Assembly (NCBI RefSeq): GCF_039729145.1
Contig: NZ_CP155793.1
Location: 3,844,001 to 3,908,000 of the forward strand
Origin: Microbacterium sp. SY138
Lineage (GTDB): Bacteria > Actinomycetota > Actinomycetes > Actinomycetales > Microbacteriaceae
Direction of reading: 5' to 3'
Length of the DNA stretch: 64,000 nt
Shown here: positions 270-5,059 of the stretch, one piece after another
How the letters are laid out: every line of letters starts with the position of its first letter
How positions within the stretch are numbered: position 1 is the stretch's first letter
Made by a program: the position numbers and the translations under genes
The notes under the pieces: model-generated
What the model was told of the DNA's origin: nothing
Database searches by the model: none
Seen by the model: the letters and a program-made list of their open reading frames with translations, nothing else

Positions 270-1001
270 TCAGGCTCCGTCGCCGGCAGCCTCGGTCGCC
301 GCCGCGTCGAGCAGTGCGATGACGCCGTCGCGCACGTGGTCCAGGTGCGATTCGAGCACCCGGAGCGCCGCGTCCACATCTCCAGCTGCCACGACGTCGA
401 TCAGCTCACCGTGGGAGTGGTCATGTGCGCCGGGAGAGACCAGACGCCAGCCGAGCACGTAGCGTCCGAGCTTGAGCCGCAGCTGCTCGATCATCTCCCA
501 CATCACCGGCCGGGCCTCGGCGTCGTAGAGCGTCGCGTAGAACTCGGTGCGGGCCTCGACGAACTCGCCGCCCTCCGAGATGTCGTCCGCCGTCTTCGCG
601 AGCTCCCGCAGCCGGCTGACCCGCTCCGGGGTGATCTCCTCCATCGCCAGGCGCAGCGCGTCCTTCTCGAGCAGCGTGCGCAGGTGGTAGACCTCGGTCG
701 CCTCCTGCACCGAGAGTGCCCGCACCATCGCGCCGCGGCGGGCATGGAAGACCACGAGGCCGTCGGCCTCCAACTGGATCAGGGCGGAGCGGATCGGCAG
801 TCGCGAGATGCCGATGGACTCCGCCAGGGTCTCCTGCCGCAGCTTCATCCCCGGAGGCAGGGTGCCGTCGAGGATCGCATCGCGGATGATGTCGTAGGCC
901 ATCGCTCCGACGGACCGGTATCCGGCTCCATGTCGCTGCGCGAGCTTCTGCAGAGCCTCGGCCCGTTCCTTGGGCGACGCGGCGTTCCCTGATTGCACCA
1001 T
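270..1001 (-). CDS. GntR-family transcriptional regulator with FCD domain
   Basis: 243 aa. Residues about 25-95 form the winged HTH (AYDIIRDAILDGTLPPGMKLRQETLAESIGISRLPIRSALIQLEADGLV), typical of the FadR subfamily. An all-helical FCD ligand domain follows (about 105-230), ending in an HGELIDVVAAGDVDAAL segment whose His is usually a metal or ligand residue. These proteins are mostly repressors of catabolic or transport genes that respond to small acids. The kynureninase end lies opposite, so a tryptophan or aromatic-acid role is possible but unproven. The ATG start has a GATACT -10-like box about 10 nt upstream, so the leader would be very short. Confidence 0.88.
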   Translation of the reverse strand: MVQSGNAASPKERAEALQKLAQRHGAGYRSVGAMAYDIIRDAILDGTLPPGMKLRQETLAESIGISRLPIRSALIQLEADGLVVFHARRGAMVRALSVQEATEVYHLRTLLEKDALRLAMEEITPERVSRLRELAKTADDISEGGEFVEARTEFYATLYDAEARPVMWEMIEQLRLKLGRYVLGWRLVSPGAHDHSHGELIDVVAAGDVDAALRVLESHLDHVRDGVIALLDAAATEAAGDGA

Positions 1002-1372: not shown

Positions 1373-4300
1373 ATGTCGTTCCTCACACGCAGCAGTCTCA
1401 AGAACCGCCTGATCCTCTCTCTCGCGACGCTCGCCGTCGTCGTCCTCGGCCTGATATCGATGGGTTCCCTCAAGCAGGAGCTGATGCCCTCGCTGCAGGC
1501 TCCGATGGCGTTCATCTCCGCACAGTCGCAGGGCCTGGCACCCGAGGAGATGGCGAGCAGCGTGACCGAGCCGCTCGAACAGGCGGTGCGAGCGGTTCCC
1601 GGTGTGACGAGCGTGACCTCGACGACATCGAGCGGCAACGCGCAGGTGCTCGTCGAGTGGACCTTCGGCGAAGACGACGAGGAGACGCTGCGCACCATCC
1701 GCAGCGCGGCCGAGTCGCTGAAGCCGAGCTTCCCCTCGGACACGGAGGTCAGCGTCGCGTCCGGCGGTGCGGGCGACCTGCCGGCCATGGCACTGAGCGC
1801 CGGCACCAGCGGCGACCAGGAGGCGTTCGGCGATGCGCTCCAGCAGACCGTCGTCCCGGCGCTGAAGGGCGTGCCGGGTGTGCGCGACGTCACACTCGCC
1901 GGCCAGGAGACGCAGCGCATCACGATCGACCTCCGCCCTGCCGACGTCACCCGCCTGAAGGTCGAGCCCTCGACGCTCGGACCGATCCTCGAAGCGCATG
2001 GCGCCGCCCTCCCGGCTGGACAGGCGGATTCCGCCGAAGGCCCCCTCTCGATCACGGTGGGGTCGCGTCTCGCGACGCCGGAAGACATCCAGGCGCTCCC
2101 GGTGCCCACGAGCGAGGGGGCCGTCACGGTCGCGGAGTTCGCCGACGTCACGGTCGAGACCGTGCCGGCGGAGACCATCTCGCGCGTCAACGGCAAGCCG
2201 TCGCTCACGCTGCAGGTGATGCCGGCACAGGGTGCCAACGTCGTCGACATCTCCCACGGCGTGAACGCCGAGCTCGACCGGCTCGCGCCGATCCTCGACG
2301 CCGAGTTCGTCACGATCTTCGACCAGGCCCCCTACATCGAGCAGTCGATCCACGACCTCTCCGTCGAGGGCGGGCTCGGTCTGCTCTTCGCGGTGCTCGT
2401 GATCCTCGCGTTCCTGCGCTCGTGGCGCTCGACGGTCATCGCGGCCGTGTCGATCCCGCTGTCGCTGCTGATCACCCTGGTGGGCCTGTGGTGGAGCGGC
2501 AACACCCTCAACATCCTCACCCTCGGCGCCCTCACCATCGCCATCGGACGTGTCGTCGACGACTCCATCGTGGTGATCGAGAACATCTCCAGACGCCGTG
2601 GTGACAGCCCGCTCACGATCGACGGCATCGTCGCCTCTGTGCGTCAGGTCGCCGGGGCCATCACCGCCTCGACACTCACCACGGTGGCGGTCTTCCTGCC
2701 GATCGCATTCGTCTCGGGCATCGCCGGCCAGCTGTTCCGACCGTTCGCGGTGACCGTCTCGATCGCGCTTCTCGCCTCGCTCGTCGTCTCGCTCACGATC
2801 GTGCCGGTGCTCGCATCCTGGTTCCTCAACAAGGCTCCGAAGCAGCGCGCCGCCGACGCAGACACGGCTCAGCCTGCGGCCGAGGGCATGACGACCGACG
2901 CAGCTCCTGCCGCCGCAGCCACCGCGGTGGCGGCAGAGGTCGCGGCTCCTGCCGCGGCGACCGTCTCGCCGTCGCCGTCTGCGGAGAGCGACGTCCCGTC
3001 CGAGCTCGACGAGATCCACACCGCCCCCGACCGGCTGCAGCGCACGTTCATGCCGGCGTTGAACGCGACCCGTCGTCACCCCGTGATCACCCTCGTCGCC
3101 TCCGCGCTGCTGCTCGTCGCCACGCTGGGGATGACACCGTTCATCCAGACCGACTTCCTCGGTTCCTCCGGCCAGGCCACCCTGCAGGTCGTCCAGACGC
3201 CCCCGAAGGAAGCCACCGCCGACCTGGTCGCCGCGGCCGAGCCGGTGGAGAAGACTCTCGGGAAGGTTCCGGGCATCGCCGACATCACCACCTCGATCCC
3301 GGTCCCCACTCCCGGCACCCCGGCGTCGATCACGTACGACCTCCGTCTGAAGGACGGCTCCGACGTCGCCGAGGTCGAATCGGAGGTGCAGAAGGCGCTC
3401 GACGGGCTTCCCGACAGCGGTGAGATCGACCTCGCGTCGCAGGACGCCTCGCTGGCAGGTGCCGGTGACGGCATCGACCTGCAGATCCAGGGCAACGATC
3501 CGGCAGCATTGCGCGCGGCGAGCGACCTGCTCGAGAAGCAGCTCGCCGACGCCGACGGCGTGCGCTCCGTGAAGAGCGAGCTCGCAGGCGAGCAGCCGGT
3601 GCTGCGGGTGAAGGTCGACGAACCGTTGGCCGCGCGCCTCGGCTTCGACCGCGCCACGATCGCGAAGGCCGTGCAGGAGGCACTCTCCGGCACCACGGTC
3701 GGCACGCTCATGTACGAGGGCCGTGAGCGCGACATCGTCGTGCGCACCCCTGGTGCGGCGCGCACCGCCGACAAGATCGGTGAGATCATGCTCCCGGTCA
3801 CGCCCCAGCAGACCGCCGAGGCGCAGAAGGCGGCAGCGGATGCGCTCCAGGCCAAGGCGGAGGCGAAGGCCGCAGAGGCGAAGACCAAGGCCGAGAACGA
3901 ACTGAACTCGCAGATCAACACCGCCACGAAGCAGCGCGCCGAGCTCGCCGGCCAGATCGGGGCCCTGAACAGGCAGCTCGCCGAGCTTTCGGCGGCACCG
4001 ATCGTGCCCGAAGACCCGCTGAGCCCGGATGAGGAGGCCGTGCTCAAAGCGCAGGCCGAACGCGCCGAGCAGCTCGCGGCGCTGCAGGGTGCGATCGAGG
4101 GGGCCCAGTCCGGCGTCGCGGCGGCGGACGAGCAGATCAAGGCCCTGCGCCAGAGCCGCAGCGACGCCGCGGCCCAGCAGGCCGAGGCCGAGGCCGCCGA
4201 GGCCGAGCAGAAGGCGGCCGCCGAGGTCACCGGCACGGCGATCCCGCTCGCCGCGATCGCGACCGTCGAGGAAGAGCTCACGGCGCCGACCATCACGCGC

Positions 4301-5059
4301 GCCGAGGGCGAGCGTCAGGTCACGCTGACCGTGACCCCGGAGAAGGGCGGGCTCGCGGCTGCCGGTCGGGCGATCGACAAGGCGATCGCCGACACCGATC
4401 TGCCGGCGGGAGTCACCTTCCTGCAGGGCGGCGCGTCCGCACAACAGGATGAGGCCTTCAGCCAGCTCGGACTGGCGATGCTGGCCGCCATCGTTCTCGT
4501 GCTGCTGGTGATGGTGGCGACCTTCCGCAACTTCCGCGGACCCCTCGTGCTGCTCATCTCGATCCCGTTCGCAGCGACCGGCGCGATCCTCGGCCTGCTC
4601 CTCACCGGAACCCCGATGGGTCTTCCCGCCCTGATCGGACTCCTGATGCTCATCGGCATCGTGGTGACGAACGCCATCGTGCTCATGGATCTCGTGAACC
4701 GCCTTCGTGGGGCGGGAGCGAGTCTCGACGAGGCGGTGGAGCATGGAACCCGCCTGCGCCTGCGACCGATCCTGATGACGGCGGCCGCGACCGTGTTCGC
4801 GCTCGTCCCGATGTCTCTCGGGCTGACCGGCGGCGGAGTGTTCATCTCGAAGCCGCTGGCGATCGTCGTGATCGGCGGCCTGGTGTCGTCGACGCTGCTG
4901 ACTCTGGTTCTGGTCCCGGTTCTCTACACGCTCGTGGAGCGCAGTCGGGAACGCCGGATCGCCAAGCGCGCCGCGCGACGAGCCCGGCGCGAGGAGCGTC
5001 GTGCCGCTTCGGCCGAGACGTCGACGGACATCTTCGAGGTCACGTCCGAGAAGCCGTAG
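1373..5059 (+). CDS. RND-superfamily efflux permease with inserted coiled-coil hairpin
   Basis: 1228 aa, longer than typical AcrB/SwrC proteins (about 1030-1065). The N-terminal TM helix is at about 12-30. A PN/PC-like extracellular domain follows, then TM block 2-6 (about 333-490) with the GRVVDDSIVVIENI motif of helix 4, which carries the proton-relay aspartates. An Ala/Pro-rich linker lies at about 495-560, then TM7, a second extracellular domain, and the final TM block (about 1030-1200). Residues about 811-945 form two Ala/Glu/Lys/Gln-rich helices around a Pro-rich turn (APIVPEDPLSPDEE), inserted between LPV and AIPL where ordinary relatives have a short loop. Role: proton-driven export of lipids, surfactants or drugs. 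No membrane-fusion protein gene is adjacent. The ATG at 1373 has only a weak ribosome site. Confidence 0.85.
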   Translation: MSFLTRSSLKNRLILSLATLAVVVLGLISMGSLKQELMPSLQAPMAFISAQSQGLAPEEMASSVTEPLEQAVRAVPGVTSVTSTTSSGNAQVLVEWTFGEDDEETLRTIRSAAESLKPSFPSDTEVSVASGGAGDLPAMALSAGTSGDQEAFGDALQQTVVPALKGVPGVRDVTLAGQETQRITIDLRPADVTRLKVEPSTLGPILEAHGAALPAGQADSAEGPLSITVGSRLATPEDIQALPVPTSEGAVTVAEFADVTVETVPAETISRVNGKPSLTLQVMPAQGANVVDISHGVNAELDRLAPILDAEFVTIFDQAPYIEQSIHDLSVEGGLGLLFAVLVILAFLRSWRSTVIAAVSIPLSLLITLVGLWWSGNTLNILTLGALTIAIGRVVDDSIVVIENISRRRGDSPLTIDGIVASVRQVAGAITASTLTTVAVFLPIAFVSGIAGQLFRPFAVTVSIALLASLVVSLTIVPVLASWFLNKAPKQRAADADTAQPAAEGMTTDAAPAAAATAVAAEVAAPAAATVSPSPSAESDVPSELDEIHTAPDRLQRTFMPALNATRRHPVITLVASALLLVATLGMTPFIQTDFLGSSGQATLQVVQTPPKEATADLVAAAEPVEKTLGKVPGIADITTSIPVPTPGTPASITYDLRLKDGSDVAEVESEVQKALDGLPDSGEIDLASQDASLAGAGDGIDLQIQGNDPAALRAASDLLEKQLADADGVRSVKSELAGEQPVLRVKVDEPLAARLGFDRATIAKAVQEALSGTTVGTLMYEGRERDIVVRTPGAARTADKIGEIMLPVTPQQTAEAQKAAADALQAKAEAKAAEAKTKAENELNSQINTATKQRAELAGQIGALNRQLAELSAAPIVPEDPLSPDEEAVLKAQAERAEQLAALQGAIEGAQSGVAAADEQIKALRQSRSDAAAQQAEAEAAEAEQKAAAEVTGTAIPLAAIATVEEELTAPTITRAEGERQVTLTVTPEKGGLAAAGRAIDKAIADTDLPAGVTFLQGGASAQQDEAFSQLGLAMLAAIVLVLLVMVATFRNFRGPLVLLISIPFAATGAILGLLLTGTPMGLPALIGLLMLIGIVVTNAIVLMDLVNRLRGAGASLDEAVEHGTRLRLRPILMTAAATVFALVPMSLGLTGGGVFISKPLAIVVIGGLVSSTLLTLVLVPVLYTLVERSRERRIAKRAARRARREERRAASAETSTDIFEVTSEKP

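Follow-up and report, generated by a model that had tools for sequence, protein, structure and literature searches.

The closest working analogue of the element described here is the coiled-coil (PD3) domain of MmpL5, MmpL4 and MmpL10, in which a resistance-nodulation-division (RND) permease bears a long antiparallel helical hairpin. The three hairpins of MmpL5 form a needle of ∼12.5-13 nm (PMC12346298, PMC12501195); the hairpin measures 125 angstrom by cryo-electron microscopy (PMC12346298), and in an AlphaFold2 model the insertion of 196 amino acids (aa) builds a hexameric helical barrel of 13 nm (PMC12501195). This coiled coil bears a disulfide at its tip and deleting the insertion abolishes pump function (PMC12501195), while deletion of the coiled coil of MmpL10 results in a loss of oligomerisation (PMC12183618). 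Here, we analysed a 64,000-nucleotide stretch of the genome of Microbacterium sp. SY138 (hereafter the window), which encodes an AcrB-type (ACR_tran, HAE1-like) RND permease of 1228 aa (open reading frame at 1373..5059, + strand). Our computations give this permease an AcrB fold and a helical hairpin at the tip of its docking crown, confine such hairpins to one group of permeases and reveal that the lengths of the two arms change in a coupled manner.

Like MmpL5, the hairpin permease carries its insert in the second extracytoplasmic domain and has no TolC. The MmpL proteins differ by belonging to another RND family and by their Met-lined lumen, their MmpS partner and the mycomembrane, whereas the insert of the hairpin permease sits at the AcrB-type crown tip and its hairpin is devoid of Met and Cys. 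The hosts of hairpin permeases are monoderm. HAE1 permeases of the AcrB/AdeB/MexB type also differ, since AcrB has only a short turn, whose D795 faces TolC, at the place where a hairpin of ∼140 aa is found here. Adaptors of the AcrA/HlyD type prolong the export path with an antiparallel alpha-hairpin but are polypeptides of their own that contain lipoyl and barrel domains. The coiled coil of the adaptor EmrA is reported to measure 127 angstrom, and no adaptor family matches the insert of the window permease. Finally, SwrC (YerP) of Bacillus subtilis is, like the window permease, an RND exporter of a Gram-positive bacterium, and exports the amphiphile surfactin (PMC12096827). A search at title and abstract level, with most subscription journals outside its reach, found no description of a hairpin insertion in AcrB-type permeases.

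The permease and its insertion site

The permease matches ACR_tran (PF00873) with 628.5 bits against a Pfam gathering score of 28, and its MMPL match (20.6 bits for a cut-off of 20.5) covers residues 996-1200 only. In a genome search, the ACR_tran match is split around the insertion (profile positions 4-780 and 671-1020), and the protein is predicted to adopt an AcrB fold, porter and docking domains included. Sixteen NCBIfam models match without any permease subfamily cut-off being reached (best NF033617, 536 vs 1250 bits). The closest named homologue is that of Microbacterium sp. NPDC091662 (94% identity), and further homologues are found at 99-100%. The single-contig genome of 3.92 Mb encodes a second ACR_tran permease of 1070 aa, with the short turn IPTPTG at the hairpin site.

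Five AcrB residues (D407, D408, K940, R971 and T978) form the proton relay. Since alignment places retained equivalents at D407, D408, R971 and T978 and a Thr at K940, unlike AcrB, the permease is likely a proton-driven pump. Its Asp pair D396-D397 (AcrB D407-D408; 2558..2563, + strand) is invariant in the 73 rows of an alignment that joins the window sequence to 21 of 120 homologues and 51 of the 80 best loci; another alignment combined the window sequence with 54 of the 120 homologues.

Alignment with E. coli K-12 AcrB places the insertion (residues 808-957; 3794..4243, + strand) at the tip of the beta2 crown hairpin of the docking subdomain, where it takes the place of the turn RAADGQ, D795 included. 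Both the alignment and the structural model locate this site between transmembrane helices (TM) 7 and 8, in the second extracytoplasmic domain. A previous interpretation made from the letters alone (the sequence-only reading) had assigned the hairpin to that domain, an assignment that is borne out and refined to the beta2 tip. The crown of AcrB has D795 in its beta2 hairpin and D256 in its beta1 hairpin, both of which lie close to TolC in a docking model that agrees with cross-linking data (PMC2292822). As the D795 turn faces TolC in that model, the insert prolongs the very part of the crown that is turned towards the exit channel in Gram-negative bacteria. Later whole-pump structures place AcrA between AcrB and TolC, and 'faces TolC' is therefore a safer wording than 'docks TolC'.

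Predicted structure of the hairpin

The better of two AlphaFold2 monomer models (mean predicted local distance difference test [pLDDT] 83.1, predicted template modelling score [pTM] 0.72) folds residues 811-951 (3803-4225) into a pair of helices, 64 and 65 residues long, joined by a Pro-rich turn. In helix 1 (residues 811-874; 3803..3994, + strand), ten-residue pLDDT means are 86, 80, 75, 76, 75 and 75, then 51 in the block that contains the turn. The tip turn (residues 875-886; 3995..4030, + strand) falls below 50 at 876-886, and helix 2 (residues 887-951; 4031..4225, + strand) has means of 71-78 for residues 891-950; the only other segment below 50 is 491-539. The other model, made first from a shallow alignment and of low quality as a whole (mean pLDDT 60.7, pTM 0.37), already contained near-identical helices at 811-874 and 888-950. 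The insertion is thus confirmed as real and predicted to be folded, as a helical hairpin and not a disordered loop, and the limits proposed by the sequence-only reading (3797-4230) were correct to within a few residues. We are nearly certain of the hairpin and of its crown-tip site.

Heptad hydrophobic periodicity goes beyond that of shuffled sequences in the distal halves of both helices (p ∼0.0005 and 0.001), with a peak at 103.5 degrees for helix 2 (p 0.001 over residues 888-951), and is not seen beyond shuffles in a control stretch (p 0.42). Each distal helix displays one hydrophobic stripe, which fits a two-stranded hairpin. This is a point in favour of the main competing explanation, in which three separate hairpins would use their Pro-rich tips to hold on to a polymer of the wall, a secreted protein or a neighbouring envelope machine and anchor the pump without building any tube. 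The good conservation of the tip prolines (91% of filled rows for P879 and 100% for P885 among 23 hairpin sequences) is in line with such anchoring, as are two Cys found at the tip turn in 3 of 51 hairpins (L108, L115 and P0158), which recall the tip disulfide of MmpL5 (PMC12501195). On the other side, the rest of the tip loop varies in sequence and length, and the neighbouring genes described below offer no common partner. Anchoring of this kind is possible, although we do not expect it to be the answer. As a separate observation, residue 855 (3935-3937) is an Arg within the core stripe of helix 1, invariant in all filled rows of the 23 hairpins and in 22/22 of an overlapping set, and corresponds to a buried charge.

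Conservation and coupled arm lengths

Helix 1 (811-871) is free of insertions and deletions in all 28 homologues compared from Microbacteriaceae and Brevibacterium, a count that left out the longer Propionibacteriaceae forms, and gaps within 900-950 measure only 0, 3, 6 or 8 residues in the same sequences. Across 11 homologues compared by region, the identity of the hairpin is close to that of the porter domain, unlike that of the TM6-7 linker (0.08-0.60). It lies slightly below the porter domain in close relatives (P0087, 0.64 vs 0.77, 0.76 and 0.81), and the corresponding values for L050 are 0.38 vs 0.43, 0.31 and 0.46. The cytoplasmic TM6-7 linker itself (residues 488-552; 2834-3028) is Ala-rich and highly variable, has a pLDDT below 50 at 491-539, and reaches ∼300 residues in one genome (G085, locus L058).

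In 51 hairpin proteins, the arms range from 65/59 to 111/114 residues and their lengths are correlated (Pearson 0.93; 0.88 for the 25 distinct pairs), as measured by a rule devised for this analysis that relies on the Pro cluster. This set consists of 36 of the 41 proteins matched by a Microlunatus hairpin region, P0001 and 14 chosen rows; four matches below 1100 aa and P0161 were left out, L049 and L102 are not part of the set, and the arms of P0143 (68/96) probably reflect a mis-set tip. Contrasts on a FastTree phylogeny gave an r of 0.70 through the origin (sign-flip p 0.00025): 32 of the 50 contrasts are non-zero, 22 change both arms, and 19 of these 22 do so in the same direction. An r of 0.70 was also obtained in a smaller set of 35 rows, in which L049 and L102 were included with a wrong first arm (internal Pro). 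The longest arms in a named organism are 98/110 (Microlunatus sagamiharensis); another Microlunatus member has 87/98 and a Brevibacterium member 65/66. That the arms mostly change together suggests an adjustable reach, and the evolution of their lengths supports an ANTIPARALLEL pair.

These data bear on two other explanations. The first is a neutral low-complexity expansion that merely scores as helical. The Ala/Glu/Gln-rich composition would suit it, as would the Gly/Pro-rich expansion that a neighbouring group of permeases shows at this position, but conservation near that of the porter domain, an indel-free helix 1, coupled arm lengths and a single group on the tree contradict it, and we give it next to no chance. 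In the second, the coiled coils would only hold the three protomers together and play no role in substrate passage. MmpL10 provides a precedent, as its oligomerisation is lost upon deletion of the coiled coil (PMC12183618). However, permeases of the same family do without a hairpin in the same genomes, and arms of up to 111/114 residues exceed what a clamp would be expected to need, which makes this role improbable.

Distribution and phylogeny

At least 8 of 100 Microbacteriaceae genomes, that of the window included, carry a hairpin permease, and all eight also hold an ACR_tran match that is unsplit at the hairpin site (sequences inspected for G000, G003, G014, G050 and G096). The order sample contained a full-span hairpin in at least 13 of 297 genomes, corresponding to the window's genome and 12 Brevibacterium. 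Flanks (about 155-201) are picked up by this profile as well, and a hairpin was scored only when the match ran over the full span; among the matches listed, 12 other Brevibacterium genomes showed flank matches only (10) or weak matches only (2). In the phylum sample, the window's own genome is the sole one of 396 past E 1e-8, with a profile built from Microbacteriaceae that would miss distant hairpin forms. A scan of species genomes covered the best 80 of 578 relatives. Of the 41 proteins recovered with the Microlunatus region as query, every one has an ACR_tran Pfam domain. Altogether, as looked for on the suggestion of the sequence-only reading, the same insertion is present in some Microbacterium, Leucobacter and other Microbacteriaceae, in Brevibacterium and in Propionibacteriaceae or their metagenome-assembled genomes (Microlunatus, Enemella, Micropruina), the hairpins of Propionibacteriaceae being longer-armed than those of Leucobacter, Microbacterium and Brevibacterium.

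In trees built from columns outside the insert, the hairpin permeases form one group (99 ultrafast bootstrap/98 Shimodaira-Hasegawa-like approximate likelihood ratio test; 23 rows, unrooted tree) and again one side of a branch with 22 and 35 hairpin rows. Two sequences, L113 (frameshifted-looking) and L144 (wrong frame), were excluded from the 35-row tree and from the crown-tip comparison. A single gain of the hairpin is likely but not proven, since the root was not inferred. An adjoining group of four permeases (L097, L098, L114 and L136; support 100/100), made up of two named Brevibacterium records and two of a genus sampled as Brevibacterium, carries, in the position of the hairpin, an insert rich in Gly and Pro that measures roughly 50-200 residues.

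The pseudo-symmetric beta1 tip (AcrB D256) was also compared. The region reaches at least 30 residues in 21 of 74 permeases without hairpin, in 0/35 hairpin permeases and in 0/4 of those with the Gly/Pro-rich insert. These beta1-tip inserts of hairpin-less permeases are often Ala/Pro/Gly-rich (L055, L060, L132, L143 and others).

Adaptors and possible relatives of the hairpin

The sequence-only reading also proposed that the hairpin may stand in for a membrane-fusion adaptor and asked whether it occurs only where adaptors are absent. Its factual premise holds, as no adaptor gene adjoins the permease and no RND adaptor (TIGR01730) exceeds the curated cut-off in its genome (best of three weaker matches, 43.3 vs 94.9 bits). 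The replacement itself is not supported. A TIGR01730 match over cut-off occurs in 1 of 20 hairpin genomes (G327, with the adaptor 212 kb away on the same contig) versus 4 of 32 genomes that showed no hairpin, and any match at E 0.001 in 12/20 versus 25/32. Among 13 named hairpin records, a match of some kind is present in 11 and one over cut-off in two (L108 and L115). These bacteria usually lack a full RND adaptor irrespective of the hairpin; the counts being similar on both sides, its absence does not clearly track the hairpin, and adaptor replacement as a rule was rejected.

A stricter version, in which the hairpin derives from, or exactly replaces, the alpha-hairpin of an AcrA/HlyD-type adaptor, can invoke the common shape and the lack of an over-cut-off adaptor in the window's genome. 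It is very unlikely in view of the insert's lack of any recognisable adaptor family, of the 28 of 32 genomes without a seen hairpin that lack such an adaptor just as 19 of 20 hairpin genomes do, and of the contact site, adaptors touching the porter/docking flank whereas the insert is on the crown tip. Indeed, none of the 10 weak Pfam hits in the insert (E up to 1, all below cut-offs) is an adaptor domain. Against the PDB, the hairpin as a single sequence gave a membrane-fusion protein as its only match, at a non-significant E of 0.28, and no adaptor is named among the 10 weak hits of a hairpin profile, one of which is labelled merely 'conserved membrane protein'. Homology with MmpL or adaptors was rejected, neither the single sequence nor the profile giving a significant match. 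Fold comparisons are governed by the AcrB core and uninformative on relatives of the hairpin: no MmpL appears among the matches listed for the later comparisons, and Foldseek on the first, poor model returned AcrB-type hits with TM-scores of only 0.43-0.52. MmpS (PF05423) has no match in the window's genome, a search that is uninformative as control genomes are likewise matchless.

Neighbouring genes

The permease is preceded by a divergent GntR/FCD regulator (273..1001, - strand) and followed by an alpha/beta hydrolase on the opposite strand and then a WYL regulator (Pfam); no adaptor gene adjoins it, in agreement with the sequence-only reading. Microbacterium sp. MYb62 (L104) has a 97% identical GntR/FCD gene upstream of its permease and is the only one of 28 loci with close homologues of all three neighbours, while five other loci contain weak GntR matches (33-41%) to the window's regulator. 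A conserved partner gene was rejected: no neighbour is common to all sampled hairpin loci or lineages, and those that are conserved are genus-bound, which speaks against tips that bind a dedicated partner.

Pfam analysis of 10 chosen neighbour genes of hairpin loci identified a GDSL lipase (L046, L049), TetR and AA_kinase/PUA (L050), ABC (L048), ABC and ABC2 (L084), CobW (L086, L090) and a methyltransferase (L047). Among 12 Brevibacterium hairpin loci, 8 have a CobW-type gene ∼110-350 bases upstream of the permease and co-oriented with it (L085, L086, L088, L089, L090, L092, L093 and L094; Pfam run on L086 and L090). In two Microbacteriaceae, the GDSL lipase/esterase gene is found just upstream and in the same direction (L046, 6611-7375; L049, 6914-7696).

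Proposed mechanism

We favour the following explanation because MmpL5 hairpins form a needle and SwrC exports the amphiphile surfactin. In a proton-coupled AcrB-type permease, the beta2 tip of the docking crown would have grown into an antiparallel coiled-coil hairpin. If the pump is trimeric like other members of its fold, three hairpins (six helices) would stand above the exit funnel and may pack laterally against one another to build a stalk or a narrow tube, of ∼9.7 nm here (64-65 residues x 0.15 nm) and ∼16-17 nm in the longest relatives (111-114 residues). This structure would take a hydrophobic or amphiphilic substrate away from the membrane, into the peptidoglycan or across it, and prevent it from falling back, acting like the MmpL5 needle with no need for a separate adaptor or outer-membrane channel. 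We hold this explanation as a whole, a stalk or tube delivering amphiphiles into the wall, at about even confidence; the assembly of three hairpins on the exit path is an equally balanced call, and a real conducting lumen is doubtful. In its fullest form, the proposal is a single-protein, wall-penetrating efflux conduit of monoderm Actinobacteria, with a coiled-coil tube on the three-fold axis that would be convergent with the MmpL needle and tuned in length between lineages (∼10-17 nm) like a ruler to wall depth. The wall zone of Gram-positive bacteria is 16-22 nm deep and the AcrB headpiece measures 7 nm. This fullest form is a tentative idea that we would rather doubt than accept.

Several observations weigh against the favoured explanation. 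The models are of monomers only, and the trimer and its lumen rest on inference. The Ala/Gln/Glu-rich basal halves of the helices have no significant heptads in the shuffle test (p 0.21 and 0.12), and the single stripe of each distal helix is that of a plain two-stranded coiled coil, whereas a six-helix barrel expects a second packing face, at which only small residues (Ala/Gly) hint. The absence of Met differs from the Met-lined lumen of MmpL5. Arm lengths are not always coupled, as 10 of the 32 non-zero contrasts alter one arm only, 3 of the 22 double changes are opposite, and P0117 lacks 8 residues of helix 2 alone. A rigid tube is no general need, given that the neighbouring group has a Gly/Pro-rich insert in this position, and the window's genome itself encodes a hairpin-less ACR_tran permease. 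Finally, the Thr in place of AcrB K940 (T1099), also found in three other tabulated permeases, departs from the AcrB relay, and the CobW-type neighbour in Brevibacterium could point to metals rather than amphiphiles.

Implications for RND pumps of Gram-positive bacteria

The permease is an AcrB-type pump bearing an MmpL-like mast at its crown tip. Crown-tip extensions include a coiled coil or a Gly/Pro-rich insert at beta2 and Ala/Pro-rich inserts at beta1; with no TolC left to face, these tips seem to be a hot spot for such growth in Actinobacteria. The question addressed is why Gram-positive bacteria devoid of an outer membrane retain AcrB-type pumps and how substrates of these pumps cross a thick wall. 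Should the hairpins assemble into a stalk or tube, RND pumps would have arrived at one solution twice, once in MmpL and once, at a different site, in the permeases described here, and the range of hairpin lengths found in nature would allow the reach of the pump to be tested against the depth of the wall.
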